Shown here: positions 2,547-29,856 of the stretch, in pieces | Layout: each line of letters starts with the position of its first letter | How positions within the stretch are numbered: the first letter of the stretch is position 1 | Origin: Lachnospiraceae bacterium | GTDB taxonomy: Bacteria > Bacillota > Clostridia > Lachnospirales > Lachnospiraceae | Length of the DNA: 40,540 bases | NCBI GenBank assembly: GCA_017513005.1 | Contig: JAFWDM010000107.1 | Coordinates: forward strand, 1-40,540 | Reading direction: 5' to 3' | Position numbers and translations under genes: made by a program | The notes under the pieces: model-generated | Seen by the model: the letters and a program-made list of their open reading frames with translations, nothing else | The model's database searches: none | What the model was told of the DNA's origin: nothing

Positions 2547-3596
2547 CTATAAAACCTCCTGCCTGAGGATAAATTCCCTGAATCTCGGCAGTGTGAAGGA
2601 CAGCCAGCCATAATCAGGCGACTGGATGATTCCCTTCTTTGTCAATCTCTTTCTATATGTCGAGAAACTGTTCGAGCTCATTTTCAGTCGGTTCCGTATG
2701 GTCTCAACTTTTGTAGAAGGTGCATCACACATAGCCGCGACGACCTCCTTGTCCTTCCTGGAAAGCTCGCTCCAGATCTTTTCGTATACATAATCCTCCA
2801 GATATGTATCATACTGAGGAAGCAGGTTCTCCAGCGATTTCTTTCCGCCTTCGCGCCACAGCAGATATCCCAAAACCTGAAACGCGAAAGGATATCCCAT
2901 GGTCGCCTTCGCCATCTCCAGGGCTTCATCCTCGCTCATTTCAAAAACCTCTCTATACTTCTGCATAATCAGCGGAATGCTGAGGGGTTTCAGTTCCACT
3001 TTAGGCGCACGGAAGAGGAATGTCAGCGTTTTCTCATTCTGAAGCTCGTAGATATTCTCATACAGGCCTGTCATGATCAGAAATACATTGAGATTTTCTC
3101 GCATAAAAATCTGAAACTGACTGGCAAATTCCCTGATCTGCCGGTTAAGAGTCAACTCGTCAATTGTTATGAGGATTCTCCTGCCGCTTTTGGTCAGCTT
3201 TTCCAACATTCTGCGCAGAGCTACAACCATGTCCGTTATAGGCGGTTCTCCGTCTATTTCCAGGCCGAATCCAAGGTAGGACAGGTTGATCTTCGCATCT
3301 CTGAACATCTCAAATAAATCCTTGCGATTGCTGAGTTCTGCCGTGAGGGTCCTGAGCAGGTCGCGCTCCGGATTGAGATTGACAATGATCCAGCGGCTGT
3401 CCGCAGCCAGTGTATTTGCAATCGCGGACATGGCGACTGTTTTTCCCGCTCCTCTCACCCCTGTGATCATGCAGACCTGATAAGAGGGGGTATCCGATTC
3501 GAAACTGTCCAGAATTTCATTGCTCTGATAATCGCGCGAAATGTAGCTGACCGGTTCCTTTCCAAAGGAAAGAGAAAATGGATTGCTCTTCTTCAT
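2547..3596 (-). CDS. AAA+ ATPase with C-terminal winged-helix-like region
   Basis: This is a 349-residue predicted P-loop ATPase. Walker A is GVRGAGKT (residues 46-53) and Walker B is ILITIDEL (141-148). A stretch of predicted helices follows, and the C-terminal 80 residues (SRKDKEVVAAM to FREFILRQEVL) look like a winged helix (SSNSFSTYRKRLTKKGII). This resembles the Orc1/Cdc6-like or archaeal-type ATPase groups that often sit alone in bacterial genomes. Its substrate is not known. I chose ATG 3596 because AGGAGG lies 12 nt upstream; an in-frame ATG at 3623 adds nine residues. The open frame continues further upstream but reads into the chromate transporter region without family-like sequence. 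It has its own promoter (3690-3718) and a duplicated leader motif. Confidence 0.75.
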   Translation of the reverse strand: MKKSNPFSLSFGKEPVSYISRDYQSNEILDSFESDTPSYQVCMITGVRGAGKTVAMSAIANTLAADSRWIIVNLNPERDLLRTLTAELSNRKDLFEMFRDAKINLSYLGFGLEIDGEPPITDMVVALRRMLEKLTKSGRRILITIDELTLNRQIREFASQFQIFMRENLNVFLIMTGLYENIYELQNEKTLTFLFRAPKVELKPLSIPLIMQKYREVFEMSEDEALEMAKATMGYPFAFQVLGYLLWREGGKKSLENLLPQYDTYLEDYVYEKIWSELSRKDKEVVAAMCDAPSTKVETIRNRLKMSSNSFSTYRKRLTKKGIIQSPDYGWLSFTLPRFREFILRQEVL

Positions 3597-3628
3597 CTGT
3601 CCGGCATTCCTCCTGTCATCCATCAAGC

Positions 3629-3679
3629 CTTTCACAACTTTCCACAACCTCTCTGTCTTTTCATAACTTTCCACGACCT
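3629..3679. repeat. 22-bp direct repeat in the ATPase leader
   Basis: Two copies, 3629-3650 and 3658-3679, match at about 19 of 22 positions with a 29-bp period. On the minus strand each contains GTGGAAAGTTRTGAAA. They lie between the predicted transcription start and the ATPase start codon. That is a position where a repressor or an RNA-binding regulator could act; no function is demonstrated. Confidence 0.5.
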
Positions 3680-3689
3680 GATGGGCTTT

Positions 3690-3718
3690 ATTATAAGGGA
3701 TAGATGAGAAAGGAACAA
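3690..3718 (-). promoter_or_regulatory. Promoter for the AAA+ ATPase gene
   Basis: On the minus strand TTGTTC (complement of 3713-3718) is followed by a 17-bp spacer and a perfect TATAAT (complement of 3690-3695). It begins about 30 bp past the chromate transporter stop codon, so the ATPase gene need not depend on read-through. Confidence 0.6.
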
Positions 3719-3745
3719 GGTTCACAATGGATCTGTGCCGCGATA

Positions 3746-4321
3746 TCACACACCTGCAAACCGGAAGAGGATGCCGGCTGCGGCCGAGAGGGCGATAAAG
3801 GCGATGGGATGGATCTTCGGAAAGGCCTTCTGGCCGGCGAAGATCAGGATGCCCAGCAGGACGGCCTTCCAGATGAAGAGGTCTCCGGGGTTGCGGGAGG
3901 CCCAAAAGGCGTCTATGTTGACCAGGGCGACTTTCGCCACGTTCAGGCCGGCGGCCGTGATCATCGCGATCGAGGCGGGGCGCAGCCCGTACAGGGCGTG
4001 CTGGACATGTCTGCTGTCCTTGAACTTCTGCAGGAAACCGGAGATGATCAGGATGATGATCAGGGAAGGGGTCGCCAGGGCCAGCGTTGCGATGACGCCT
4101 CCTGGATAGCCGGCTGTCTTGAATCCGGCATAGGTCGACATGTTGATGCCGATCGCGCCGGGGGTGGACTCGGAGATGGCGATCATGTCCGCAATGTCCG
4201 CGTGCGAGAACCAGTGGGTCTTGTCGGACATCTCATAGAGGAAGGGGAGGGTCGCAAGCCCGCCGCCGATGGAAAAGAGTCCGGTCTTGAAAAACTCGAA
4301 GAAGAGGCGCAGGTAGATCAT
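3746..4321 (-). CDS. chrA: Chromate transporter, second half-size subunit
   Basis: This 191-residue membrane protein belongs to the short-chain CHR family, in which the two halves of ChrA are separate genes. It starts MIYLRLFFEFFKTGLFSIGGG, the conserved FFK-x-G-x-FSIGGG entry of CHR domains. It also contains ISESTPGAIGINMSTYAGF, matching the family STPG motif. About six hydrophobic segments follow. Its ATG overlaps the stop of the upstream partner in ATGA (4318-4321), so the two are translationally coupled and probably form a heterodimer. The family exports chromate by sulfate-like anion transport, but in anaerobes the physiological anion is uncertain. Confidence 0.88.
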   Translation of the reverse strand: MIYLRLFFEFFKTGLFSIGGGLATLPFLYEMSDKTHWFSHADIADMIAISESTPGAIGINMSTYAGFKTAGYPGGVIATLALATPSLIIILIISGFLQKFKDSRHVQHALYGLRPASIAMITAAGLNVAKVALVNIDAFWASRNPGDLFIWKAVLLGILIFAGQKAFPKIHPIAFIALSAAAGILFRFAGV

Positions 4322-4911
4322 TTCTCCGCCTCCTTTCCGTTTGCCGTCGTATTTCCGGCTTTTCCGTCCCGGAGGCCGCCGATCAGCACGCCGAGGATGC
4401 CGGAGATGATGACGAGGACGGCGGCGGGAACCGCCAGAGGCAGCACGCCGGACAGGGCCGTCATCAGAAAGACAGCGAGGTAGAGGACCAGGGTGGTTTT
4501 GTCTACGACGGATTTATTCCACAGGCGCAGGACTGCCTGGATGATCAGGACGCATACGCATACACGGATGCCTGCAAAGGCGTTCTGCACGACGGGGAGG
4601 TCGGCAAAGCCCTGCAGGAACGTGGCGATGAGCAGGATGATCACGATCGGGGCGCTGACAAAGCCGACTGTCGCGGCGACCGCGCCTGCGATGCCCTTGC
4701 GGCGGCAGCCGATAAAGGTGGCCACATTGAGGGCGATCAGGCCCGGCGTGCACTGGCCGATCGCAAAATAGTCCGTCAGGTCCTCCGTCGTCGTCCAGCC
4801 CCGGGTCTCGACCAGGTCTCTTTCCAGCAGGGGCAGCATGGCATAGCCGCCGCCGAAATTGACGGCGCCGATTTTAAAAAAAGCGAGATACAGTTCCAGA
4901 ATTTCTTTCAT
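4318..4911 (-). CDS. chrA: Chromate transporter, first half-size subunit
   Basis: This 197-residue partner of the previous gene has the same fold. It opens ELYLAFFKIGAVNFGGGYAMLP and carries FAIGQCTPGLIALNVATFIG, the CHR-family CTPG motif. The hydrophobic helices end in a short charged tail (RDGKAGNTTANGKEAEK). The start ATG (complement of 4909-4911) lies in a 13-bp tandem repeat in which every unit carries an ATG. The immediate upstream sequence is GAAAGAAAACC with no good Shine-Dalgarno, so initiation may rely on coupling to the repeat-encoded mini-ORFs. The gene lies about 70 bp after the large dehydratase subunit and is probably part of the same transcript. Confidence 0.88.
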   Translation of the reverse strand: MKEILELYLAFFKIGAVNFGGGYAMLPLLERDLVETRGWTTTEDLTDYFAIGQCTPGLIALNVATFIGCRRKGIAGAVAATVGFVSAPIVIILLIATFLQGFADLPVVQNAFAGIRVCVCVLIIQAVLRLWNKSVVDKTTLVLYLAVFLMTALSGVLPLAVPAAVLVIISGILGVLIGGLRDGKAGNTTANGKEAEK

Positions 4912-4950
4912 GGTTTTCTTTCATGGTTTTCTTTCATGTTTTTCTTTCAT
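4903..4950. repeat. 13-bp tandem repeat covering the chrA start codon
   Basis: Units begin at 4903, 4916, 4929 and 4942 (TTCTTTCATGGTT on the plus strand). On the minus strand each unit reads ATGAAAGAAAACC or a near copy. ATGs therefore recur every 13 bp. The 9-codon frame from ATG 4937 stops in TGA overlapping the chrA ATG. Confidence 0.8.
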
Positions 4951-4980
4951 ATAGAAAGTCTGCAGGTCCGGCTGACATCG

Positions 4981-6243
4981 TCAGACCGGGACCGTGATTT
5001 TGCCCTCGACTGCCGTCCAGGCGGCGGTCTTCGGGGAGGCCAGGTAGATCTGGACCTTTGAGGTACCCATGCGGCCCAGGAAGTTGCGGTTATTGGTCGC
5101 GACGACGACTTCATTGTCGGTCAGGATCCCGCCGGCCCGCCCGCAGCAGAGGCCGCAGCCGGGGTGGGTGATCATGGCGCCTGCCTCGGCGAGCGTCTCG
5201 AGGATCCCCGCTTCCAGGGCTTCGCGGTAGATTTTGCGGCTGGCCGGGGTGACGATGAACTTGACGAAGGGGGCGACTTTCCGCCCTTTGAGGATCTCTG
5301 CGGCAGCGGCGAGATCTTCGAGGCGGCCGTTGGTGCAGGAGCCCAGGAAGACCTGGTCGACAGCTTTTCCCGCGATTTCGCTGACAGGATGGATGTTGTC
5401 CACCTGCGAGGGGCAGGCGGCGACGGGGACGAAGTCCTCTGCCCGGTAGGTCAGGACGCGGTCATAGACGGCGTCGGGGTCGCCCTTGAGATTCTGCAGG
5501 AATGTATCGTTTTTGAAGTCTGCAGGCGCTATGCCGCAGTATTCCGCCGTCTTTTCGTCCGGGGAGAAGAGGCCGCACTTGGCGCCGCACTCGACGGTCA
5601 TATTGGCCATGGTCATGCGGCTGGCGACGGTCATGGCATCAAAGGTGCTGCCGGCAAACTCCAGCGATTTGTAGGTAGCGCCGTCGGCCCGCAGGTCGCC
5701 GAGGATCTGCAGGATGACGTCCTTGGAGGTGACATTTGGGGGAAGGGTCCCGTCCACCTGGACCTTGATGGTTTCCGGGACGCGGATCCAGAGCTTACCG
5801 GTCCCCAGGATGCCGGCCATCTCGGTGTAGCCGATGCCGGTGGAGAAGGCACCCACGCAGCCGTAGGTGACGGTGTGGCTGTCGGTGCCGAAGGCGATAT
5901 CACCTGGCTTCACATAGCCGGCCTCCGTCATCAGCTGGTGGCAGATGCCGTCCGAGCGGTGCACATTTCTGACCCCGTATTTTGCCGCGAAGGCATCTCC
6001 TGTGGCAAAATGGCGGGCGTCGTCGAGCTGGCTCGCGGGGACCAGGTGGTCGTAGATGAGGACCATTTTGTCCGGATCCCAGATCTTTGAAAAGCCCATC
6101 TCTTCAAACTTGTCTGCGACGAAGGGAATAAAAATGTCGTGCACCATGACGCGGTCGACGTTCACTGTGACGATCTCGCCGGGGGTCACTTTTTCGCGCC
6201 CGATATTGCGGGCGATGATTTTTTCTATGAGTGTCTGGCCCAT
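4981..6243 (-). CDS. Aconitase-superfamily dehydratase, large subunit A (LeuC-like)
   Basis: This 420-residue protein is full length for a LeuC/homoaconitase-type large subunit. It has FGTDSHTVTYG, GSCTNGR with Cys303, and HPGCGLCCG with Cys363 and Cys366. These three cysteines are the expected [4Fe-4S] ligands. The enzyme dehydrates and rehydrates a 2- or 3-hydroxy-dicarboxylic acid, as in 3-isopropylmalate isomerisation. I start at ATG 6243 (MGQTLIEKIIARN), which has AAAGGAAC upstream; the longer frame adds 22 residues without family similarity. Its small subunit is the next gene upstream. A second, different large/small pair lies directly before that, so the two enzymes probably act on different substrates. 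No leuA or leuB is nearby. The substrate is not resolved. Confidence 0.85.
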   Translation of the reverse strand: MGQTLIEKIIARNIGREKVTPGEIVTVNVDRVMVHDIFIPFVADKFEEMGFSKIWDPDKMVLIYDHLVPASQLDDARHFATGDAFAAKYGVRNVHRSDGICHQLMTEAGYVKPGDIAFGTDSHTVTYGCVGAFSTGIGYTEMAGILGTGKLWIRVPETIKVQVDGTLPPNVTSKDVILQILGDLRADGATYKSLEFAGSTFDAMTVASRMTMANMTVECGAKCGLFSPDEKTAEYCGIAPADFKNDTFLQNLKGDPDAVYDRVLTYRAEDFVPVAACPSQVDNIHPVSEIAGKAVDQVFLGSCTNGRLEDLAAAAEILKGRKVAPFVKFIVTPASRKIYREALEAGILETLAEAGAMITHPGCGLCCGRAGGILTDNEVVVATNNRNFLGRMGTSKVQIYLASPKTAAWTAVEGKITVPV

Positions 6244-17959: not shown

Positions 17960-20900
17960 ATGCACAGAAAGATGACGAGATTCCTGTCTCTGTTCCTCTC
18001 CGCGGCCATGATGATGGGTTCTCTGAGCCTGCCTGCCGCTGCGGCGGAATCTTCACCTGCCTATGCAGAGACGGCAGCAGAAGCGGTGGAGGAGGAACAA
18101 TACGCCGCGCAGGAAGAGGCGGAAGCTGACCCTGCAAAGAGTGCAGAGGCGGAGGAGCCCCTGGATACTGCAGAGGAGACGGCTGAAACGCCGGATCCCG
18201 CCGGTGAAGCGCCTGCGGAGGAGGCGGCGGATGAGGAGGACGCTGCTGCGGCAGACGAGCCGGAAGAGCCTGTTTCCGAGGCGGAGGAGTCTTCTCCCGA
18301 GGCGGAGGAGCCCGCTTTTGAGGCGGAGGAGCCCGCACCGGAATCCGGGGACGAAACGGAGCCGGTGGAGACGGATCCTGCAGCTGCCCGGACAGATCGG
18401 AAAGCAGATTCTGCCGATGCCCCGGCAGAAGGGGAAGCTGTTCCTGCGGAAACCGCAGTAACCACGGAAGATGCGGCAGGGACTGCAGAGGAAGCGGTCA
18501 CAGACACAGCGGTAGATGCCGCCGGGACATCGGAGATCCCCCTTACCGGGCAGGGGTATGTTTTGATGAACATTCCCTATGCCGATTTCTATGCGGCAGA
18601 GGGAGTCGATGATGTCGACGCGGTGTCGTCCTCGACAAAGGCAAAGCCCCGCACCTGGAGGCTTGCGGCGGGATCCTATCACGTCCATGCGGACGGCAGC
18701 GATATCAGCGGGATCACATATCCTGTATTTGTGGAGGACCTGTCCGTCCTGGAAGGCCTGACAAGGATCACGGATGACAGCTCCGTGGAAATCACAGTGA
18801 CAAACCGGGGACAGACCACGACCGAGACCTATTCCGGAAAAGATGCCCTGTTTGAGGCGCCTGACTACGCCTTTTACGTGCTCGGCGGGGAACCTGCAGC
18901 CAGCAAAAAGCTGACGGTCGCGGGCGATGGATCCTTCTCTTTCGGGGCGGTCAGCAGGGATGCGCAGACTGTGCAGGGTGTGACCGGAGAAGTCACCTAC
19001 AACGGCAGGCACACAGACATCGAGATCCCCCTGGACGGGACAGACGGCATTTCGCAGGGGGACATGGTTTCGGCTGTAGTCCTGACGGATGCGGATGGAA
19101 ACAGGTATGGCATGCGCCATGTTTATAACATCTGGAGGGCGACGGAGCTGGGCTGGAATGACGATGAACTGGACCTGTACGGAAAAACCATCGTTAACAT
19201 CCGCTATATCACCCAGGAGGCGGTGATCGATTATCCCGTGGAGATCGCGCTCAAGAACAGAGTGTCCGGCGCAGAGGCGGCATTTGACGGGCTTGAGAAG
19301 GTGGTCGTGACCGGCCTGCCGGCGGATATTGAAAACCCGAAGGCGACCGTATCGAGCGTCGTCGGACGCGGAGAGACACCGGTCGTGATCGCAGACGGCG
19401 CGGATGTGGCGGACGGCGTGATCGTTACGGCGCAGGCGGCTGTTGCCGGCACCCAATATACGGTCAAGGTCGTGAGCGATAATTATGCGGATGTAAGTGT
19501 TAGTGCCACCGCCTATGCCAGGGAAGATATGAGCGCAGTCACGCTGGGCGGGGTCCAGTATTACTATGCCGATACGGCGGAGGATGATCCGGAGTTTACT
19601 TCCTATCACTTCAGTGTGACGACAGGAAGAGGGTCCAGTGCGGTGACGACAGACTATGCCTATCTGCGCGCGGACCTCACCCGGGTCGCGGGGACAGACT
19701 TCTTCTATATTGCGCAGCCCGGTGCGACTCCGCTTACCGGCACTTTGTACGGATTTGAAAACGGCAGCGGCAGCGCATCCGACTACAGGACCGTGTACGG
19801 CGGCCTGGGAGTCAACACGGACACGGATCCTGCCTACGATGCGGTGACGAGCGCGACCGGCTTCAGCGGGTTCCACGCCAAGGATATCCCTTCACTGGTG
19901 ACATTCGGCACAGATGCGGACGGCGAAAAGGCCATCACCGGCCTGACCCTGGGACGCAGCACAAAGACGGTCGACGCGACAGCGTATGTGGAGGCAGGCA
20001 TCCTGCAGGCAGCAGGGAGGGAACTGACGGCTGACCAGAAGGCAGCCCTGGATCTCACGCTGAAGGTCAATCCGATGGATGCGCCTGCAGAGTCGGAGAT
20101 CGCTGTGCGGCCTGCAGACGCATCTTTCGCGGCGTGCAGGTATGGCGCGGCGGAATTTGTGATCGTTCCGGATGATACTGTCGAGGGATATGTCTGGAGC
20201 GAATACTGGAACAGCGTCTATGCGGCGACCATCAGTGACGGGAAAAATACTGTCGGCGCGGTTCACTGGATCGATCTCTATGGAGAGGCGGCTGTCAGCG
20301 GCCACCACTACAACAGGCTGGAGATCGCACTGAACGACGGGGTGAGCAAAGGCTCCAATGAGGCGGACGTCAGCCGCTACGCGGCCTTTTTCGACGGCGG
20401 TTACATAAAAGCCGGCACCTATACCATCAAGGTGTATGCGGAGGGCTACACACCTCTGACAGCGGAGGTCGCTGTCGACAGGGGCCTCGTACTCAAAGAC
20501 AAGACCGTCGTGTACAAGGGACAGGCGGTCGGAATCGAGGCGTCCGCTCCGGCAGAGATCGACGGAGAGGTCGTCTACAGCTGGTACAGTGACAGGGGAT
20601 GCACAGCCCCTCTGAACGGACAGCCCAAAGACGCAGGTACCTACTATGTCAGGGCAGTCGCAGCGGACATGGTGACCTCCAACGTGGCGAAGCTGACGAT
20701 CAGCAAGGCGGCGCAGGCGTTTACGGCGAAGGCCGCGGCGGCGACGGTGCAGGCCGGCAGGACGACAAAGATCACGGCGTCCGGCGCAAAAGAGACCGCA
20801 AAGTATACCTATACATCCTCGGACAAGTCTGTCGCGACAGTTTCCTCCGACGGAACCGTGACAGGGAAAAAGGCGGGTACCGTCACGATCACGGTCACGA

Positions 20901-21568
20901 CCCCTGAAACGAAAAACTACAAAAAGGGAACAAAGACCGTCAAAGTCACGGTGCAGGCGGCTCTGAAAAAACCCGGCAACTGCCATTTTGTCAAGTGGAA
21001 CAATAAAAAATATACCAGCTGCCAGATCGCCTGGAAGAAGGTGGCCGGGGCGGACGGGTACCAGACACTTCTGAGCTGGACCGACGGAAGCCACGCCTCC
21101 TCGAAGATCCTCAAAGCCAATGTGCTGAGCCAGAACTGTGCGGTTGCGGCCAACCACGTCAGCCAGCTCAAGGTCAGGGCCTTTGTGAACACTGCCGGCG
21201 GCCGTGTGTATGGTCCCTGGTCCAACGTTGAATACATCACACCTTCTCCGGCTGCCACTTTCCGTTTCAAGAATGTCAGCACAGCCTCTCAGCTGAAGGC
21301 AAAAATCAGCTGGAACATTATTTACGGCTGCAACGGATACAATGTTTTCGTGACCACCAACCCGAACGGGACCTGGTACTGGAACCAGTCGACCTCTGTC
21401 AAGGCGAATGCGACCAGCGCCACGATCACCAAATACCGCGGCTCCAAGCTCAAAAAGAATACGACCTACTACGTCCGGATCGTCACCAGAAGGAAACGCA
21501 ACGGCGTATTCTGCACAGTACCCATGCCCGCGAAAAACACGTATATCGGCAGCTTTACGATCAAGTAA
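17960..21568 (+). CDS. Large secreted surface protein with Big_2 and fibronectin-like domains
   Basis: This 1202-residue protein has a signal peptide (MHRKMTRFLSLFLSAAMMMG, cleavage near AAA-E). Residues about 30-190 are an extended acidic Glu/Ala/Pro stretch. From about 197 a module begins GYVLMNIPYADFYAAEGV and contains DAVSSST (220-226) and GSYHVHADGSDISGITYP. It resembles domains I recall as Tp47-like in Firmicutes surface proteins (memory, not a search). A second region near 540-640 contains DAVTSAT (627-633). Residues about 915-1000 are a Big_2 immunoglobulin-like domain (SDKSVATVSSDGTVTGKKAG), and the last 200 resemble two fibronectin type III folds. There is no LPxTG or membrane anchor. 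AAGGAGGAG precedes the ATG. It may work with the flavin proteins downstream, but the link is only proximity and motif resemblance. Confidence 0.85.
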   Translation: MHRKMTRFLSLFLSAAMMMGSLSLPAAAAESSPAYAETAAEAVEEEQYAAQEEAEADPAKSAEAEEPLDTAEETAETPDPAGEAPAEEAADEEDAAAADEPEEPVSEAEESSPEAEEPAFEAEEPAPESGDETEPVETDPAAARTDRKADSADAPAEGEAVPAETAVTTEDAAGTAEEAVTDTAVDAAGTSEIPLTGQGYVLMNIPYADFYAAEGVDDVDAVSSSTKAKPRTWRLAAGSYHVHADGSDISGITYPVFVEDLSVLEGLTRITDDSSVEITVTNRGQTTTETYSGKDALFEAPDYAFYVLGGEPAASKKLTVAGDGSFSFGAVSRDAQTVQGVTGEVTYNGRHTDIEIPLDGTDGISQGDMVSAVVLTDADGNRYGMRHVYNIWRATELGWNDDELDLYGKTIVNIRYITQEAVIDYPVEIALKNRVSGAEAAFDGLEKVVVTGLPADIENPKATVSSVVGRGETPVVIADGADVADGVIVTAQAAVAGTQYTVKVVSDNYADVSVSATAYAREDMSAVTLGGVQYYYADTAEDDPEFTSYHFSVTTGRGSSAVTTDYAYLRADLTRVAGTDFFYIAQPGATPLTGTLYGFENGSGSASDYRTVYGGLGVNTDTDPAYDAVTSATGFSGFHAKDIPSLVTFGTDADGEKAITGLTLGRSTKTVDATAYVEAGILQAAGRELTADQKAALDLTLKVNPMDAPAESEIAVRPADASFAACRYGAAEFVIVPDDTVEGYVWSEYWNSVYAATISDGKNTVGAVHWIDLYGEAAVSGHHYNRLEIALNDGVSKGSNEADVSRYAAFFDGGYIKAGTYTIKVYAEGYTPLTAEVAVDRGLVLKDKTVVYKGQAVGIEASAPAEIDGEVVYSWYSDRGCTAPLNGQPKDAGTYYVRAVAADMVTSNVAKLTISKAAQAFTAKAAAATVQAGRTTKITASGAKETAKYTYTSSDKSVATVSSDGTVTGKKAGTVTITVTTPETKNYKKGTKTVKVTVQAALKKPGNCHFVKWNNKKYTSCQIAWKKVAGADGYQTLLSWTDGSHASSKILKANVLSQNCAVAANHVSQLKVRAFVNTAGGRVYGPWSNVEYITPSPAATFRFKNVSTASQLKAKISWNIIYGCNGYNVFVTTNPNGTWYWNQSTSVKANATSATITKYRGSKLKKNTTYYVRIVTRRKRNGVFCTVPMPAKNTYIGSFTIK

Positions 21569-21791: not shown

Positions 21792-24368
21792 ATGGAAATA
21801 ATGAGAGTTATAAAAATTCCCAAACCGATTCGTTCCCTGATGAACTTCTGGCCGGCAGTGCTGGTCCTGGTTCTGGTATCGCTGTCCCTTCCGGGGACTG
21901 TCCCGGTTCTGAACAGGATCCCTGCGAAGCTGACGATGCCGGCCGCAGAACCGTCCTCTCCGAAACCGGCCCTGCCTGCTCCCCCGGCGGCGCAGGAGGA
22001 GGAGCCTGCCGCCGATTCGGGCAGCACCTATACAGACGGTGTCTATAAAGGATCCGCCAGGGGATACGGCGGGATGATCACCGTGCAGGTCACTGTGGCG
22101 GACAAAAAGATCGCGGAGGTCTCTGTCCTGAGCGCCCCGGGAGAGACGGGGAGCTTTCTCTCCAAGGCCAAGGGAGTCATCGACCGCGTGATCCGGGCCC
22201 AGACCTGGGAGGTGGACGTGGTCTCCGGGGCGACCTACAGCTCCCGGGGGATCCTGGGGGCGGTCCGGAATGCCCTCACGGGAGAGACCGTGGAGAACGC
22301 AAAGCCCCCCGCGCAGCCGAAGCCGAAGGCCCCTCTCACACAGCAGCCTTTTGATGACACTGGGGTGTGGAAGGACGGCACCTATATCGGAAGCGCGATG
22401 GGATTCGGCGGGACCATCAAGGTGGAGGTCACGATCAAAGGCGGCAGGATGGATGCGATCAGGGTCCTGCAGCACGGCGGAGAGACGGATTCCTACTTTA
22501 ACAAGGCAAAGCGGGTGATCGCAAAGATCCTCTCTGCGGGGACCCCCAACGTAGACACCATCTCCGGGGCGACCTACAGCTCCAACGGCATCATCAATGC
22601 GGTCAAAAACGCCCTGAAAAAAGCGGCCGGCGGCAGCGGGGACTCCGCGCAGGAGGACGCCGGAGATTCCAAAAGTCCCGCGAAAACGCCGGCAAAGGCC
22701 CCTGCGCGGGATGACACGGAGGAACCGGATCTGACAGAAGGCTTCAAAGACGGCACCTTTACCGTGGATGTTGAGTGTACGGACGGCAGGATCTTTGACT
22801 ATACGATCCGCCTCACGATGGTCGTGAAAAACGGAAAGATCCAGTCGATCCGGGCGGAGAACATAGAGGACAGGTCTGACAGACCCGACATGAACAGGAC
22901 CTATCTCGGCTATGCGGTCAGCGGCCGCACGGTGGAAGGAAAGACTTACAGGGGCGTGATCAGTCAGATCCTGGCCGGGCAGACCACGAAAGGGGTGGAT
23001 ATTGTCAGCGGCGCGACCTACTCCTCTGAAGCGATCCTGCGGGGGGCCAAAAAGCTGCTCGCACAGGCCGCAAACGACAAAAAGCAGGCAGGCGGGAATG
23101 GCGGGGACGAAGATGAGAAAGAACAGGAGTCCGGGAAAAAGCCGACCCGCGGGGAAGAGGGATCCGGGACGGAAGCAGAACGGGAACCCCTGGATGAACC
23201 GGAACCGGAAAACGGCCTGAAAGACGGCACCTACTCCCTGGAGGGAATCTGTACGGACGATCCTTCCGATCCGCTTTTTGACTATACCGTCCTGGTGACG
23301 ATGAAAGTGGAAAACGGGGAGATCCTTTCGATCACGGCTGAGATCAAGGAAGACCGCTCCGAAGATCCCGATACGAACGCGGTCTATTTCCGCTACGCAA
23401 CAGAGGGAAGAACCCGCAAGGGGGTGGAATACACAAGTGTGATCGCCCAAATTCTGGATAAGCAGTCTACTGCGGACATTGATGTCGTCAGCGGCGCGAC
23501 TTATTCCTCCCGGACCATCCTCAGCACCGTGAATAAATTGCTGTGGCAGGCGGCGAAGACGTCTTCCGGGGATCCGGGAGAGGAAGAGAGCGGACCCGGC
23601 GGGGAGACAGAGCCCTCCGGGGAAGGCAGTACCGGCGGAGAAACAGAGCCCTCCGGGGAAGGCAGTACCGGCGGAGAGACAGAGCCCTCCGGGGAAGGCA
23701 GTACCGGCGGAGAAACAGAGCCCTCCGGGGAAAGCAAAACCGGCGAAGAGGCTGAGCCCTCCGGGGAAGGCAAAACCAGCGGAGAAACAGAGCCCTCCGG
23801 GGAAGGCAGCACCGGCGGGGAGACAGAGCCCTCCGGGGAAGGTAAAACCGGCGGAGAAACAGAGCCCTCCGGGGAAGGAAGCACAGGCGGGGAGACAGAT
23901 TCCTCCGGGGAAGGCAAAACCGGCGGGGAAGCGGAGCCTTCCGGGGAAGGTAAAACCGGCGGGGAAACAGAGCCCTCCGGGGAAGGCGGAACCGGGCAGA
24001 ACGAAAAAGAGGAGACGGAGAAACAGTACAAGGACGGAACATATTCGGCGAAAGCCCACTGCATCGACGATCCCGACGATCCGTTTTTCTCCTATACGGT
24101 CAAGGTTACGGTCACAGTCAAGGATGGAAAGATCGCAGACATCAGGGCTGAGCGGGTCGATGATGAATCCGAGGATCCGGAGGAAAATGCCCGCTATATG
24201 AACTACGCCGTGAAAGGCAGGACGAAAAAGGGGAAGACCTATAAGGGGATCCCGGAGCAGGCGATCGATGCCCAGAGTGCCTCCGGGCTCGATACAGTCA
24301 GCGGAGCCACTTATTCCTCCAAAGCCATCATCAAAGCGCTGAAGGAGGCAGTAGAGGATGCAAAATAA
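21792..24368 (+). CDS. Membrane-anchored protein with five FMN-binding domains
   Basis: This 858-residue protein has an N-terminal membrane anchor (FWPAVLVLVLVSLSLPG) and five FMN_bind modules outside the cell. Each module ends in the flavinylation motif Dxx(S/T)GATYSS, predicting covalent FMN on Thr148, Thr261, Thr409, Thr570 and Thr840. Modules 1-2 are the short type (DGVYKGSARGYGG, DGTYIGSAMGFGG). Modules 3-5 are a longer type with an extra loop (RSDRPDMNRTYLGYAVSGRT and relatives). Eleven Gly/Glu/Ser/Thr 12-mers separate modules 4 and 5 and would span the wall. The ApbE at 26231 can attach the FMN. The likely role is electron relay from the NapH-like membrane protein to an extracellular acceptor. 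ATG 21792 or 21801 could start it. A long minus-strand frame here is only a shadow. Confidence 0.9.
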   Translation: MEIMRVIKIPKPIRSLMNFWPAVLVLVLVSLSLPGTVPVLNRIPAKLTMPAAEPSSPKPALPAPPAAQEEEPAADSGSTYTDGVYKGSARGYGGMITVQVTVADKKIAEVSVLSAPGETGSFLSKAKGVIDRVIRAQTWEVDVVSGATYSSRGILGAVRNALTGETVENAKPPAQPKPKAPLTQQPFDDTGVWKDGTYIGSAMGFGGTIKVEVTIKGGRMDAIRVLQHGGETDSYFNKAKRVIAKILSAGTPNVDTISGATYSSNGIINAVKNALKKAAGGSGDSAQEDAGDSKSPAKTPAKAPARDDTEEPDLTEGFKDGTFTVDVECTDGRIFDYTIRLTMVVKNGKIQSIRAENIEDRSDRPDMNRTYLGYAVSGRTVEGKTYRGVISQILAGQTTKGVDIVSGATYSSEAILRGAKKLLAQAANDKKQAGGNGGDEDEKEQESGKKPTRGEEGSGTEAEREPLDEPEPENGLKDGTYSLEGICTDDPSDPLFDYTVLVTMKVENGEILSITAEIKEDRSEDPDTNAVYFRYATEGRTRKGVEYTSVIAQILDKQSTADIDVVSGATYSSRTILSTVNKLLWQAAKTSSGDPGEEESGPGGETEPSGEGSTGGETEPSGEGSTGGETEPSGEGSTGGETEPSGESKTGEEAEPSGEGKTSGETEPSGEGSTGGETEPSGEGKTGGETEPSGEGSTGGETDSSGEGKTGGEAEPSGEGKTGGETEPSGEGGTGQNEKEETEKQYKDGTYSAKAHCIDDPDDPFFSYTVKVTVTVKDGKIADIRAERVDDESEDPEENARYMNYAVKGRTKKGKTYKGIPEQAIDAQSASGLDTVSGATYSSKAIIKALKEAVEDAK
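23598..23993 (+). repeat. 36-bp coding minisatellite, eleven units
   Basis: Eleven in-frame 36-bp units encode variants of GGETEPSGEGST. Units 1-3 are identical at the protein level; later ones vary at Ser/Lys (GST/GKT) and Thr/Ala. Because the unit is a multiple of three, copy-number change preserves the frame and alters only spacer length. Confidence 0.95.
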
Positions 24369-24419
24369 AGTACAGGAAAGCCGGGGGTACAGGGCGATGT
24401 TTTATAACGGGGACGGAAA

Positions 24420-24884
24420 ATGAAATACATGAATTTTATCACCAGGGCTTTGTGCCTTGTGATCCTGCTGGTGACGCTCAGCCAGTACCAGGTGCGGGCG
24501 GCCAGGAAGGCACAGGAGGAAGCGGAAAACGCAGCGACGATCGCAGAGGTCGAAGCCTACAACAGAGAGGTGGAAAAAAAGATCGCAGAGGCGGAAGGGA
24601 AGAGCGCCTCTCCCTATGCCGACGGAACCTATGAGGGCAGTGCGGATGGATTCGGAGGTCCGATCCGGGTGGAGGTGACCATCGAAGGCGGAGATCTCAC
24701 GGCGGTCAATGTGCTGGAAGCGTCCTCCGAGGACCCTGCATATTTTTCACAGGCAGAGGCGGTTCTCGGCGAGATCCTCTCGACCCAGGGCGTGGCGGTA
24801 GAGACGGTCAGCGGGGCCACGTTCTCTTCCCGGGGCCTGATTGATGCTGCGACGGACGCGCTTCGTAAAGCCGCGGCACAGTGA
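24420..24884 (+). CDS. Membrane-anchored single FMN-binding-domain protein
   Basis: This 154-residue protein has an N-terminal membrane helix (ITRALCLVILLVTLSQY), a charged coiled-coil stem (about 27-60, RKAQEEAENAATIAEVEAYN) and one FMN_bind domain (YADGTYEGSADGFGG onward). The flavinylation motif ETVSGATFSS predicts covalent FMN on Thr134. It follows the five-domain protein by 51 bp and is probably in the same operon. The short stem should hold its flavin near the membrane, making it a plausible bridge between the NapH-like ferredoxin and the longer multi-flavin protein (inference). Confidence 0.9.
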   Translation: MKYMNFITRALCLVILLVTLSQYQVRAARKAQEEAENAATIAEVEAYNREVEKKIAEAEGKSASPYADGTYEGSADGFGGPIRVEVTIEGGDLTAVNVLEASSEDPAYFSQAEAVLGEILSTQGVAVETVSGATFSSRGLIDAATDALRKAAAQ

Positions 24885-24893
24885 AGCGGCACT

Positions 24894-24915
24894 GGCGGAG
24901 CCGTCCGGCTCCGCC
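24894..24915 (+). promoter_or_regulatory. Intercistronic GC hairpin
   Basis: GGCGGAGCC (24894-24902) pairs perfectly with GGCTCCGCC (24907-24915) around GTCC, 10 nt after the stop of the single-domain FMN protein. There is no T-run, so a role in mRNA stability or partial read-through between the FMN and NapH-like genes is more likely than termination. Confidence 0.5.
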
Positions 24916-25012
24916 GGCCTGTACCGCGCCGGAACAAAGGCTGTATGCACAGCCGCGGCACGCACAATGAACCGTTATGACTGCACTATAGTAGTAGAAA
25001 GGCGGCAGGAGT

Positions 25013-25918
25013 ATGCCTTTTTTTGGAGATATGACAACAAAGCAGCTTTCTGCCGGGCAGGAAAGAAAGCGCAGGAACCGCAGGCGGAGCCTCACGAGGG
25101 CGGCTATCCAGCTGCTCTTTTTTGTGAGCATGCCGGGCGCCTATGTGGCGGGCTTTAACGGAATCAAGTATATATTCCGGCAGCTCAGCAGCGGAGGCCT
25201 GCTGGAGTGGAACAGCTTTGTGACAGCCCTGGCCGGTCTGGGGGTCTTTACGATCATTTTCGGCCGGTTTTTCTGCGGATATATCTGTGCCTTCGGCTCC
25301 CTCGGGGATTTTGTCTACTGGCTGTCCGGCCTGTTTCAGAAAAAGATCCTGAAGAAAAAGAAGCAGGTCTCGATCCCGCAGACAGTCCTGCCGTGGCTGC
25401 AGAAGCTGAAATACGTCAACCTCGCATTTATTCTGATCGTAACGGCAATGGGCTGGAGCGGGGCACTTCAGGGCACGAGCGCCTGGGATGTTTTTTCCCG
25501 GCTGACTGCATTCCGGCTCCCGGACAGGTCTTTCGGGATCGGCATCCTGTGCCTGGCCGTGATCCTGGTCGGCATGGGCGTCCAGAGCAGGTTTTTCTGT
25601 CAGTTTCTGTGCCCCATGGGCGCTTTTTTCGCGACCCTTCCGATCCTTCCGTTCATGGCGCTCCGCAGAGATCCTGCAAACTGCCTGAAGGGGTGCAATG
25701 CCTGCCGGAATACCTGCCCGGCAGGTCTGAAGCTGGAGCCGGACGGACTGCGCAGCGGAGAATGCCTCTCCTGCGAAAAGTGCATCGGGATCTGCCCGAA
25801 AAACAACCTGCACTATCCGGCGGGAAGACTCTTCAAAAAGGAGGTCCTGTACATCCTGTTTCGTGCTGCCGTGTTTTTTGTGCTCGGGGCGTGGACGGGG
25901 CTCTGCCGCTTCCTGTAA
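25013..25918 (+). CDS. NapH/CcoG-like membrane 4Fe-4S protein
   Basis: This 301-residue polytopic membrane protein has about four to five hydrophobic segments. The membrane cysteine motifs FFCGYICAFGSLGDF (near residue 87) and RFFCQFLCPMGAFF (near 194) are the NapH-family CxxxCP-type signature. They are followed by two [4Fe-4S] ferredoxin motifs, CLKGCNACRNTCP (from Cys224) and CLSCEKCIGICPKN (from Cys251). Such proteins pass electrons from quinol or other donors through the membrane to extracytoplasmic redox partners. Lying between FMN-domain genes and apbE, it is the likely electron entry point of the flavin relay. The start is uncertain: ATG 25013 has GGAG only one base away, and ATG 25031 also has a close GGAG. 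The frame is complete. Confidence 0.88.
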   Translation: MPFFGDMTTKQLSAGQERKRRNRRRSLTRAAIQLLFFVSMPGAYVAGFNGIKYIFRQLSSGGLLEWNSFVTALAGLGVFTIIFGRFFCGYICAFGSLGDFVYWLSGLFQKKILKKKKQVSIPQTVLPWLQKLKYVNLAFILIVTAMGWSGALQGTSAWDVFSRLTAFRLPDRSFGIGILCLAVILVGMGVQSRFFCQFLCPMGAFFATLPILPFMALRRDPANCLKGCNACRNTCPAGLKLEPDGLRSGECLSCEKCIGICPKNNLHYPAGRLFKKEVLYILFRAAVFFVLGAWTGLCRFL

Positions 25919-26137
25919 AGCGGGTACAGTTCAGACTCGCCTGAAGCCTCGAAGTATTTTTCGCGAAAAACCCGGGTGCGACGGCGCGAACACACTTGCT
26001 TGCAAGTGTGTTGCACACAGTATGGCGTATTAGAATCGCCGCACGCAACGTTACATGTTGTTACGTGTCCACGCCCTTCAAGGGAGCGTGGACAGTAAGG
26101 TATAGCGAAAAGCTGCCGCCCCGCGCCGGCTTATGAT
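25919..26137. repeat. Intergenic element with two perfect inverted repeats
   Basis: AACACACTTGC (25989-25999) and GCAAGTGTGTT (26002-26012) form an 11-bp perfect palindrome with a 2-nt centre. GTCCACGC (26067-26074) pairs with GCGTGGAC (26086-26093) with an inner CCTT/AAGG. Parts resemble other spacers here: AGCGG-TACAGTTCA and AAGCCTCG recur near 12976-13020, and the AAGGG-CGTGGAC-GTAAG string recurs near 31436-31455. It looks like a degenerate dispersed repeat, possibly MITE-like. No gene is seen. Confidence 0.4.
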
Positions 26138-26167
26138 TTGACATGAGGTCTGCAGAACGTATATCAT
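26138..26167 (+). promoter_or_regulatory. Promoter of apbE
   Basis: TTGACA (26138-26143), an 18-bp spacer and TATCAT (26162-26167), about 60 bp before the apbE start. GCCGT-CTGAA-ACGGC forms a small hairpin just after the predicted start site. Confidence 0.65.
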
Positions 26168-26230
26168 AGGGAGACGCCGTCTGAAACGGCCGAAGCAGAA
26201 TGACCGATACTTTTGCAGATGGGAGAAAAG

Positions 26231-27712
26231 ATGAGAAGACCCGCTGAAAGAAATGAAAAAAAGAGCACGCAGATCTCTTCTGGCAGTGCTGTCAGCAGAT
26301 GCGCCGCGGTCCTTCTGGCCGCCCTGGTCGCGGTGAGCACTGCGGCCTGCGGAGGGCAGAGCGCCTTCGGGACGAAGACAGATGCCCGGCGCGCGGATGC
26401 CGGCGAAGGCAGCTCCACAGCGGAGGCGGTCCCGGCCGGGCAGCAGGAAGGCGCTTCTGCGGCGGGAACCGCTTCTGCGGAACAGACTGCGCAGCCGGCT
26501 GAGGACATCGAGATCCCCGAGGAGCCCTATGTCCGCGATGACGGCGGCGTATCCATGAATGTCTTCGCGATGGATACCTACATGACCTTACTGGCGTACG
26601 GTGAGAGCAGTGACGGAGATGAAGACGGCACCGCACAGGCAGAGCGGGCGGTCCGCGCGGCGGCAGAGGAGATCCACAGCCTCGATGAGATGCTGTCGAC
26701 CGGAAATCCCGACAGCGAGATCTCAAAGCTGAATGTTGCGGGCGGCGGTTCTGCGTCTAATGTGGTGATAAAGCTGATCAGACGCTCGCAGCAGCTGCGC
26801 AGGGAGACGGGCGGCCTGTTTGAGATCGCTATCTATCCTGTCATGAAGCTGTGGGGGTTCCCGACCCAGGACTACCACGTACCGGAAAAAGAAGACCTCG
26901 ACAAGGCCCTGAAGCTCGCCGATGCCTCCGCGATCACGATCGGGCAGGCGGGAACAGAAGCGAAGGATGCAAAAAAAGCCGTTTCTGCAGATACTGAGGG
27001 TACTGCCGCCGGTACGGCAGCGGCGGAAACAGGAGCGGCAGGCCGGGCTGGCACCGCTGCCGGGACAAAAGCGGAAGCCTCCGGCGCAGCCGTTTCGGCG
27101 GTCCCTGCTGCCGGTGCAGAAGCGGCGGCCTCGGGCGCATCGAAGGGAAATGATACGACTGTCTCCTTCGGCATTCCCGGCATGGAGATCGACCTGGGCG
27201 GTATCGCCAAGGGCTATACCAGCAGCCGCGTGATGGAGATCTTCAAGGAGCAGGGCATCAAACACGGTCTCGTCAGCCTGGGCGGCAATGTGCAGGCCCT
27301 GGGCAGCAAGGCGGACGGAAAGCCCTGGCGCGTGGCCATCCAGAATCCGGAGAGCGACCTGGATTACCTCGGGATCCTGGACATAGAGGGAAAATGTGTC
27401 ATTACGTCCGGCGGGTATGAGCGGTTCTTTATCGAGGACGGGGTCCGCTATCACCATATTATCGATCCCCGCACCGGCTATCCCGCCGACAGCGGCCTGC
27501 TCTCGGCGACCATTATCAGCGAGGACGGCACCCTGGCGGACGGACTCTCCACTTCCCTCTTTATCATGGGAAAAGAGGAGGCTGAGAAATACTGGCGCGC
27601 TCATCCCGGCACCTTTGACTACATTCTCGAGGATACGGACGGGACCCTGTATGTGACGAAGGGGGCCGCCGGTCTCCTCACGACAGAGGCAAAGACAGTC
27701 GTCGTGCAGTAA
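26231..27712 (+). CDS. apbE: ApbE-family FMN:protein transferase, lipoprotein
   Basis: This 493-residue protein has a lipoprotein signal (AAVLLAALVAVSTAAC, lipid-bearing Cys40). ApbE family marks are MDTYMTLLAYG, SLDEMLSTGNPDSEISKLN, IDLGGIAKGYTSSRV (Asp321 region), GLVSLGGNVQALGSK, HHIIDPRTGYPAD and LADGLSTSLFIMG. ApbE transfers FMN from FAD to Thr of Dxx(S/T)GAT motifs, using Mg, outside the membrane. Unlike typical ApbE of about 330-350 residues, it has a roughly 70-residue Ala/Gly/Thr-rich insertion (about 240-308) just before the DLGGIAKG motif. ATG 26231 is preferred because GGGAG lies 5 nt upstream; the frame opens at TTG 26213. It is the obvious modifier of the two FMN-domain proteins upstream and has its own promoter. 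Confidence 0.93.
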   Translation: MRRPAERNEKKSTQISSGSAVSRCAAVLLAALVAVSTAACGGQSAFGTKTDARRADAGEGSSTAEAVPAGQQEGASAAGTASAEQTAQPAEDIEIPEEPYVRDDGGVSMNVFAMDTYMTLLAYGESSDGDEDGTAQAERAVRAAAEEIHSLDEMLSTGNPDSEISKLNVAGGGSASNVVIKLIRRSQQLRRETGGLFEIAIYPVMKLWGFPTQDYHVPEKEDLDKALKLADASAITIGQAGTEAKDAKKAVSADTEGTAAGTAAAETGAAGRAGTAAGTKAEASGAAVSAVPAAGAEAAASGASKGNDTTVSFGIPGMEIDLGGIAKGYTSSRVMEIFKEQGIKHGLVSLGGNVQALGSKADGKPWRVAIQNPESDLDYLGILDIEGKCVITSGGYERFFIEDGVRYHHIIDPRTGYPADSGLLSATIISEDGTLADGLSTSLFIMGKEEAEKYWRAHPGTFDYILEDTDGTLYVTKGAAGLLTTEAKTVVVQ

Positions 27713-28218: not shown

Positions 28219-29856
28219 ATGGAAAACAAGACACGTACTGTACGGGTGACGATCGCGGCCTTCGCCGCGGTGCTCATCTTCCTGGTCATTGCGGCTTTTG
28301 TGACCACGCCGGAGGGCGTCCAGCAGAGCTTCTGGTCGCTCATCCCGCCCATCATCGCCATTGTGCTGGCCCTGGTGACAAAGGAAGTCTACAGTTCGCT
28401 CTTCATCGGGATCCTGACAGGGTCGCTCCTGTATTCGGGCTTCAGCTTTGAGGGCACGCTGAATCATATTTTTACGGACGGCATCATCACGTCCCTGGCG
28501 GATGCCTGGAATGTGGGCATCCTGATCTTCCTGGTGATCCTGGGCATGATCGTGCAGCTGATGAACCGCACCGGCGGCAGCGCGGCGTTCGGGGAATGGG
28601 CCTCCAGGCGGATCCAGACCCGCAAGGGCGCCCAGCTGGCGACGATCGCGCTCGGCGTCCTGATCTTTATCGACGACTATTTCAACTGCCTGACGGTCGG
28701 CAGTGTCATGCGGCCCGTCACGGACAAGCACAATGTATCCCGTGCCAAGCTGGCCTATCTGATCGACGCCACGGCGGCACCGGTCTGCATCATCGCCCCG
28801 ATCTCCAGCTGGGCGGCGGCGGTCGCAGGCTTTGTCGAGGGCGAAAACGGCCTGTCTCTTTTTATCCGGACGATCCCCTACAACTATTACGCACTTCTGA
28901 CCATCGCCATGATGATCATGCTCGTGCTGATGAACATCAACTATGGTCCCATGGCGGCACATGAGTACAACGCCGTGTACAGGGATGACCTGTATACAAC
29001 GCCGGACCGCCCTTACGCGAACGCGGAAGAGGAGGAGGGGAGAAAAGGGCATATCTCCGATATGCTGGTGCCCATCTTCTCGCTGATCATCTGCTGCGTG
29101 ATCGGTATGATCTATACCGGAGGCTTCTTTACAGGGACGAGTTTTATCGATGCGTTTGCGGGCAGCGATGCCTCTGTGGGCCTCGTGCTGGGGTCCTTCG
29201 GCGGCCTCGTGATCACCATGGTCTTCTACCTGGTCCGCAACTCACTGCCCTTTGAGGAGATCATGGCCTGCCTGCCGGACGGCTTCAAACAGATGGTGCC
29301 CGCCATCCTGATCCTGACCCTGGCCTGGACCCTCAACGGGACCACAGCAAGTCTGGGAGCCAAGGAGTTCGTCGCCGCCTTCGTCGACAGCAACGCGAGG
29401 AGCTTCGCCATGTTCCTGCCCTGCATCATCTTCCTGATCGCCGTCTTTTTGTCCTTTGCGACCGGAACCTCCTGGGGCACCTTCGGTATCCTGATCCCGA
29501 TCGTCGTGGCCTGTTTCCAGATGACGGATCCCAAGATGATGATCATCGCGATGAGCGCCTGCATGGCCGGCTCCGTCTGCGGCGACCACTGCTCGCCGAT
29601 CTCCGACACGACCATCATGTCCAGTGCCGGTGCCCAGTGCAACCATATCAACCACGTCTCGACCCAGATGCCCTACGCGCTGACCTGCGCGGCTGTCTCC
29701 GCCGTGACCTACATCGTCGCCGGCGTCATGGAAGGGGGCATGCACAACGCGAACCCGGTCTTCCCTCTGGTGATCGGCCTGCTTCTGCTGTTCGCTGTCA
29801 TGTTCATCTTCAAGATCGCGGGCGGAAACGGAAATGACGCCCCTGCCGGGGAGTGA
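28219..29856 (+). CDS. NhaC-family Na+/H+ antiporter-type transporter
   Basis: This 545-residue polytopic membrane protein has about 11-12 hydrophobic segments. Family marks are FIDDYFNCLTVGSVMRP, LAYLIDATAAPVCIIAPISSW, FATGTSWGTFGILIPI and CGDHCSPISDTTIMSSAGAQCNHINHV. These place it in the NhaC/ion-transporter superfamily of Na+/H+ or substrate/H+ antiporters. Some members exchange amino or organic acids, so the ion cannot be fixed from sequence. GGGAGG lies 9 nt before ATG 28219; an earlier ATG at 28212 is out of frame. Its structured leader suggests post-transcriptional control. It is convergent with the HAD gene, 51 bp away. Confidence 0.9.
   Translation: MENKTRTVRVTIAAFAAVLIFLVIAAFVTTPEGVQQSFWSLIPPIIAIVLALVTKEVYSSLFIGILTGSLLYSGFSFEGTLNHIFTDGIITSLADAWNVGILIFLVILGMIVQLMNRTGGSAAFGEWASRRIQTRKGAQLATIALGVLIFIDDYFNCLTVGSVMRPVTDKHNVSRAKLAYLIDATAAPVCIIAPISSWAAAVAGFVEGENGLSLFIRTIPYNYYALLTIAMMIMLVLMNINYGPMAAHEYNAVYRDDLYTTPDRPYANAEEEEGRKGHISDMLVPIFSLIICCVIGMIYTGGFFTGTSFIDAFAGSDASVGLVLGSFGGLVITMVFYLVRNSLPFEEIMACLPDGFKQMVPAILILTLAWTLNGTTASLGAKEFVAAFVDSNARSFAMFLPCIIFLIAVFLSFATGTSWGTFGILIPIVVACFQMTDPKMMIIAMSACMAGSVCGDHCSPISDTTIMSSAGAQCNHINHVSTQMPYALTCAAVSAVTYIVAGVMEGGMHNANPVFPLVIGLLLLFAVMFIFKIAGGNGNDAPAGE

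Follow-up and report, generated by a model that had tools for sequence, protein, structure and literature searches.

The described systems closest to the locus reported here are the NapH-like flavinylation systems. Meheust et al. 2021 (PMC8238504) count 539 clusters of the stand-alone type that has a second FMN_bind gene, and the elements in common with our locus are genes for a NapH-like Fer4_5 membrane protein, FMN_bind proteins and ApbE. Many Gram-positive bacteria have multi-flavin clusters, whose role the same paper calls generally unclear. The relay type itself is thus published: NapH-like systems, multi-flavinylated proteins with several FMN_bind domains per extracytosolic protein, and large neighbours are all described in the texts of PMC8238504, PMC11334425 and PMC10339131. 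Beyond the shared elements, our locus has a gene dedicated to a one-flavin protein, another for a five-flavin protein, and a surface protein that is Tp47-like, and its cluster differs from the systems of PMC8238504 in having no reductase or oxidase. Our addition is to identify the part of these large neighbours that carried no annotation, by profile comparison, as Tp47-like.

Gene content and genome setting of the locus

The window, the whole stretch of 40,540 nucleotides that we analysed, is contig C95 of a 2.68-Mb assembly of 130 contigs, from a genome that is 97% complete. ORF calls recovered the four genes of the original prediction, running in one direction (+) from 21792 to 27712 as it had proposed. 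The set does not start at 21792, as had been assumed: the gene at 17960–21568 (+), called BIG below, is part of it and is conserved in the clusters of relatives.

The first two genes encode anchored flavin proteins with one N-terminal hydrophobic segment each. F5 (21792–24368, +; 858 aa) contains five FMN_bind stretches (Pfam, 203.7 bits) with the flavinylation motifs DVVSGAT, DTISGAT, DIVSGAT, DVVSGAT and DTVSGAT, starting at 22215, 22554, 22998, 23481 and 24291. F1 (24420–24884, +; 154 aa) contains a single Pfam FMN_bind domain with the motif ETVSGAT at 24801. Six Dxx(S/T)GAT motifs had been predicted, five plus one in two anchored proteins; the number and distribution stand, but only the five of F5 are Dxx, that of F1 being Exx. 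A chance run of motifs was rejected because a search of the window in all six frames for [DE]xx[ST]GAT returned exactly these six, all inside the FMN_bind domains of F5 and F1, and no other. The F1 equivalents of the nearest named relatives, L041 and L042, carry DTISGAT instead of ETVSGAT. According to PMC12052999, a model enzyme was little affected when this motif Asp was changed to Ala, so F1 is, by analogy, probably still an ApbE substrate despite its Glu.

With five FMN_bind domains bearing five motifs, F5 is by domain content a multi-flavinylated protein, and it differs from those described in mixing short and long domains in one chain. Domains 1 and 2 are short, while domains 3–5 are longer and resemble PplA (NCBIfam NF041941, 116.9 bits, below the cut-off of 325). 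The locus shares these PplA-like domains and ApbE with Listeria-type extracellular electron transfer but, among the cluster genes scanned with Pfam, has a NapH-like donor instead of Ndh2. In ten relatives (L050, L052, L053, L054, L055, L060, L062, L063, L064 and L067), the last FMN_bind domain of the multi-flavin protein has R, H, K or S in place of the motif Gly, often followed by Cys (for example DTVSRATCSS).

The NapH-like Fe-S membrane protein (25013–25918, +; 301 aa) lies next to FMN_bind and ApbE genes. It matches Fer4_5 (PF12801) at 47.3 bits against a cut-off of 22, with CxxxC at residues 88 and 196 and two C-terminal cysteine clusters of the 4Fe-4S type in residues 224–261, which bears out the predicted membrane protein with two [4Fe-4S] motifs. 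It scores below the cut-offs of the NCBIfam models for NapH proper (TIGR02163, 81.9 against 213; NF007013, 77.9 against 234). The same genome encodes a second Fer4_5 protein of approximately 330 aa (C85:4901–5890, L113), on a contig with no FMN_bind place.

The last gene, apbE (26213–27712, +; further ATG at 26231), encodes an ApbE lipoprotein (FAD:protein FMN transferase) as predicted, with a Pfam score of 284.6 bits against 25.6 and the lipobox STAAC, and is the only ApbE gene found in the 97% complete genome. A long alanine-rich low-complexity insert lies near residues 255–318, between the two Pfam stretches. Upstream of apbE is a promoter-like site (26138–26167, +; TTGACA-18-TATCAT, 11/12 matches), a consensus match only, of a level at which three sites occurred in the 7.1 kb scanned and 1.9 were expected by chance. 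Because apbE has this promoter-like site of its own, the four genes may not form one transcript. The 294-base gap between napH and apbE (25919–26212) also contains inverted repeats such as ACACACTTGCTTGCAAGTGTGT; Rfam matched no RNA element there, and at gathering thresholds gave only two tRNAs in the window. After apbE comes a gene of the Na+/H+-antiporter family (28219–29856), and a protein with a near-identical N-terminus is encoded after apbE in L041 (3957–5576).

The best named matches of the NapH-like protein are in assemblies of Lachnospiraceae, Clostridiales and Clostridia, some labelled sheep gut, which makes a Lachnospiraceae bacterium of the gut the probable host. FMN_bind occurs at seven places in the genome, six in the window and one at C19:13590. 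The latter adjoins an RnfB gene (Rnf region) and has a Hpre_diP_synt_I gene nearby, on a contig other than that of the window; a small gene pair beside Rnf on C19 had no NCBIfam match. We also found two MenA-like prenyltransferases, both below curated cut-offs, one of which adjoins HepT-, FixC- and FixX-like genes. Both (demethyl)menaquinol and ferredoxin are possible donors to the NapH-like protein.

The predicted absence of an Ndh2-type donor and of a fumarate-reductase-like gene holds for the cluster, as neither appeared in a Pfam scan of neighbouring genes in the window. A search for a fumarate-reductase-like partner outside the cluster returned 13 FAD_binding_2 places in the genome, mostly short pieces; we set this idea aside, as the FMN_bind places of the genome are confined to the window and the Rnf region of C19. 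An iron-uptake setting was considered and rejected: a DtxR-like regulator lies upstream, yet the genes around it encode a branching-enzyme-like protein and a cyclophilin rather than Feo.

Conservation of the gene set in the family

We searched 299 genomes of the family (298 genera) with the NapH-like protein and obtained matches at E 1e-20 or better in 31 genomes, at 34 places. Eight of these are fused to FMN_bind and 26, the window included, are stand-alone; two of the stand-alone loci (L069 and L075) are cut by contig ends and were excluded, leaving 24. All 24 contain F1 and a multi-flavin gene with two to seven domains, 21 contain ApbE and 20 a Tp47-like gene. The fused loci look different, with ApbE in 4/8 and neither a separate multi-flavin protein nor a Tp47-like gene in any (0/8 each). 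The difference in Tp47-like genes (20/24 against 0/8) gives a Fisher p of 4.7e-5, uncorrected for phylogeny. The four stand-alone loci with no recognised Tp47-like gene are L051, L065, L066 and L072, and L051 has a BIG homologue that matches the second repeat.

Nine further related loci (L041–L049) stand outside these counts. Gene order in L041 and L042 is as in the window, in L043 and L044 FMN_bind and the Tp47-like part are fused in one protein, the set in L045 comes with no Tp47-like match, L046–L048 have the fused FMN–NapH form, and L049 gave no match. In L043, two genes (2932–4680 and 4947–5714) join FMN_bind domains to dockerin type I domains, an arrangement that might let a flavin carrier attach to a scaffold of the cellulosome kind. 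Our draw contained one more genome from the genus of the window (G267); it had no match to NapH, so the flavin gene set is accessory.

The Tp47-like domain and its flavin neighbours

BIG is a secreted surface protein of 1202 aa with an N-terminal hydrophobic segment and with Big_2 and PEGA above cut-off. An acidic N-terminal stalk is followed by a Tp47-like domain, by a second repeat whose motif is similar, and then by the Big_2 Ig domain and a C-terminal Ig/FnIII-like part. Tp47 is a syphilis antigen whose function is unsettled. The Tp47-like region of BIG (type A; 18497–19606, +; motif DAVSSST at 18617–18637) matched no Pfam family at E up to 1 and did not reach the cut-offs of PF14889 or PF14888; PF14889 had no match in the window's own genome. 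Against the Pfam-Tp47-type alignment, hhalign gave this domain a probability of 97 (E 1.1e-10). The best PDB match of its AlphaFold model was 1O75, at a Foldseek TM-score of 0.33; confidence in the model is low (pLDDT 61.7, and about 35 around the motif), and the VIA alignment covers model residues 137–338, with the motif-bearing part outside. By profile and modelled fold, the domain is best described as a distant Tp47 relative. It differs from the type B domains of relatives, which score above the Pfam cut-offs, and BIG as a whole differs from Tp47 (Pfam PBP-Tp47_a, _c) in being far larger, secreted, equipped with Ig-type modules and below the Pfam cut-off.

The second repeat (19520–20539, +; motif DAVTSAT at 19838–19858) aligns with L042. 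Its comparison with Tp47 gave an hhalign probability of 1.9 over 29 columns around the motif, and its AlphaFold model had a pLDDT of 44. A PDB sequence search with the whole of BIG yielded four weak Ig/FnIII-type matches.

We found the company of Tp47-like and flavin genes to extend well beyond the window. PF14889 was above cut-off in 12 of the 299 family genomes, every one of which belongs to the set of 31 with NapH (Fisher p 1.7e-13, with no phylogenetic correction); in 10 of them the match is at the NapH locus. A thirteenth genome, G204, scored 19.8 bits, below the cut-off of 25, and is not a NapH genome. In a phylum-wide draw PF14889 was found in 0/398 genomes. A type-A profile matched 29/299 family genomes, of which 20 are NapH genomes, partly by construction since the profile was built from proteins beside NapH. 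The nine genomes with no NapH match are a fairer test of the association, and at all ten of their loci an FMN_bind gene adjoins the Tp47-like gene or is fused to it. One of the ten (L154) also has a 69-aa NapH-like piece beside a four-flavin gene.

At seven of these ten loci the FMN gene belongs to one family of membrane proteins, which have seven or eight TM segments by prediction, share similarly placed histidines and end in an FMN_bind domain. None of the seven is similar to NapH; for Ferric_reduct, whose cut-off is 28, one scored 34.5 and another 25.7, and five had no match. The two-gene pair of a Tp47-like protein and a 7–8-TM protein with C-terminal FMN_bind, with no NapH, was seen in L146, L147, L148, L150, L151, L152, L153 and L168. 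From its gene content, this pair would be a compact flavin system of its own.

Across the family, we examined 36 loci that encode a Tp47-like domain. In 32 of them the stretch retrieved also contains FMN_bind or NapH; the genomes of the other four (L155, L156, L158 and L159) carry a NapH gene elsewhere. A class-level draw gave matches in 7/391 genomes, five of them new, with pairing or fusion in three (G1021, G760 and G1061) and neither in two (G908 and G926). Three of the seven large proteins scanned have FMN_bind, Tp47_a and Tp47_c in one chain, all above cut-off. In Treponema pallidum, Tp47 has the tag 0574 (PMC5956850), and the annotation of TP0572 given in PMC5607219 is 'FMN-binding domain protein, putative membrane protein', which is consistent with the same Tp47–flavin pairing. 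In the open-licence library searched we found no published link between Tp47 and a flavin electron chain; among the passages of PMC8238504 searched, none was on Tp47 or penicillin binding.

This association bears on whether BIG takes part in electron transfer at all. Alternatively, the relay could be real and BIG only a structural or adhesive passenger, serving in wall anchoring or in surface or mineral binding. BIG consists mostly of Ig-like and FnIII-like parts, its relatives carry FIVAR, Shr-like_HID, SLH or dockerin modules typical of binding proteins, and the text of PMC8238504 notes SLH, Rib, FIVAR or LysM domains in large neighbours. However, the association holds for small Tp47-like proteins (389–649 aa) beside a different membrane donor, and FMN_bind is found fused to Tp47 domains. 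We consider a passenger role the less likely reading.

Using profiles that lack the motif, we found D..[ST].[AS]T in 36/36 full-length Tp47-like domains from the cluster loci (26 type A, 10 type B), which shows only that these loci hold no motif-less copy, as the rows behind the profiles had initially been chosen by motif. T. pallidum Tp47 aligns at this place with DAVSRAT. Such conservation raises the idea that the domain carries flavin in its own right, with D-x-x-[ST]-x-[AVPS]-T as a non-canonical ApbE target through which BIG would add one or two flavins to the chain. In keeping with it, G is likewise replaced by R, H, S or K in 11 of the 136 FMN_bind motifs counted in the cluster loci, and according to PMC12052999 a Gly-to-Ala change still allowed approximately 50% flavinylation in the model enzyme. 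The target motif published there is D-x-x-[ST]-G-A-[ST], and the Tp47-like domain departs from it: of the 34 matches counted, 32 have S, R or T at position 5 and one has G. The motif also degenerates in relatives with the 7-TM donor (SSVT, SSPT, TSPT or SSSN), and the window's own first copy reads SSST. Because S, R or T replaces G and the motif decays beside the 7-TM donor, we do not claim flavinylation of the Tp47-like domain, and regard it as improbable.

A candidate relay and its possible meaning for the Tp47 family

The reading that we prefer, at a little better than even odds (roughly 0.55), is that the locus encodes a flavin relay across the envelope of a Gram-positive, Lachnospiraceae-like bacterium, running from the NapH-like protein through F1 and F5 to the Tp47-like BIG and acting on an outside substrate. 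The NapH-like Fe-S membrane protein would take electrons from a quinol or ferredoxin pool and pass them to F1, and F1 to F5, in what we presume to be the direction of flow. ApbE would attach FMN to the flavin proteins, whose loading is likewise predicted. F5, putatively spanning the wall, would then hand electrons to the Tp47-like BIG or its ligand, with BIG binding or turning over the outside substrate and the Tp47-like protein as the putative outer, terminal module. We place this module at the far end, with the acceptor, because it follows the flavin genes across two unlike donors and is found in FMN_bind fusions; it may act there as a catalyst, a docking protein or an adhesin. The original prediction of a flavin-based extracytoplasmic relay fed by the NapH-like protein fits both the conserved set and the published design. 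Its open end at the five-flavin protein is not supported, as a Tp47-like surface protein is the conserved outside neighbour.

Electrons could also flow inward, an outside donor being oxidised at the Tp47-like protein and the flavins feeding NapH and the quinone pool; the text of PMC8238504 does describe NapH-like clusters as serving reductases or oxidases. The genome, however, has an Rnf region and looks fermentative. In fermentative metabolism, outward disposal of electrons is the commoner need. We therefore give inward flow very little weight and retain the outward relay.

For the multi-flavin clusters, the Tp47-like domain is a specific candidate for what forms the chain's outer end, since it accompanies them in different genera, persists when the membrane donor is exchanged and occurs in fusions with FMN_bind. 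Because the surface domain belongs with Tp47, the syphilis antigen gains a testable setting as partner of an extracytoplasmic flavin electron chain. The near-constant company of Tp47-like proteins with flavin genes in the relatives suggests a redox role. More broadly, and only tentatively, the Tp47 family, the syphilis antigen included, may consist of redox modules served by flavin relays with NapH-like or heme-type donors, in which D-x-x-[ST]-x-x-T would handle a flavin or substrate and might be a non-canonical ApbE target. If this were true, the penicillin binding in the family's name would be incidental.
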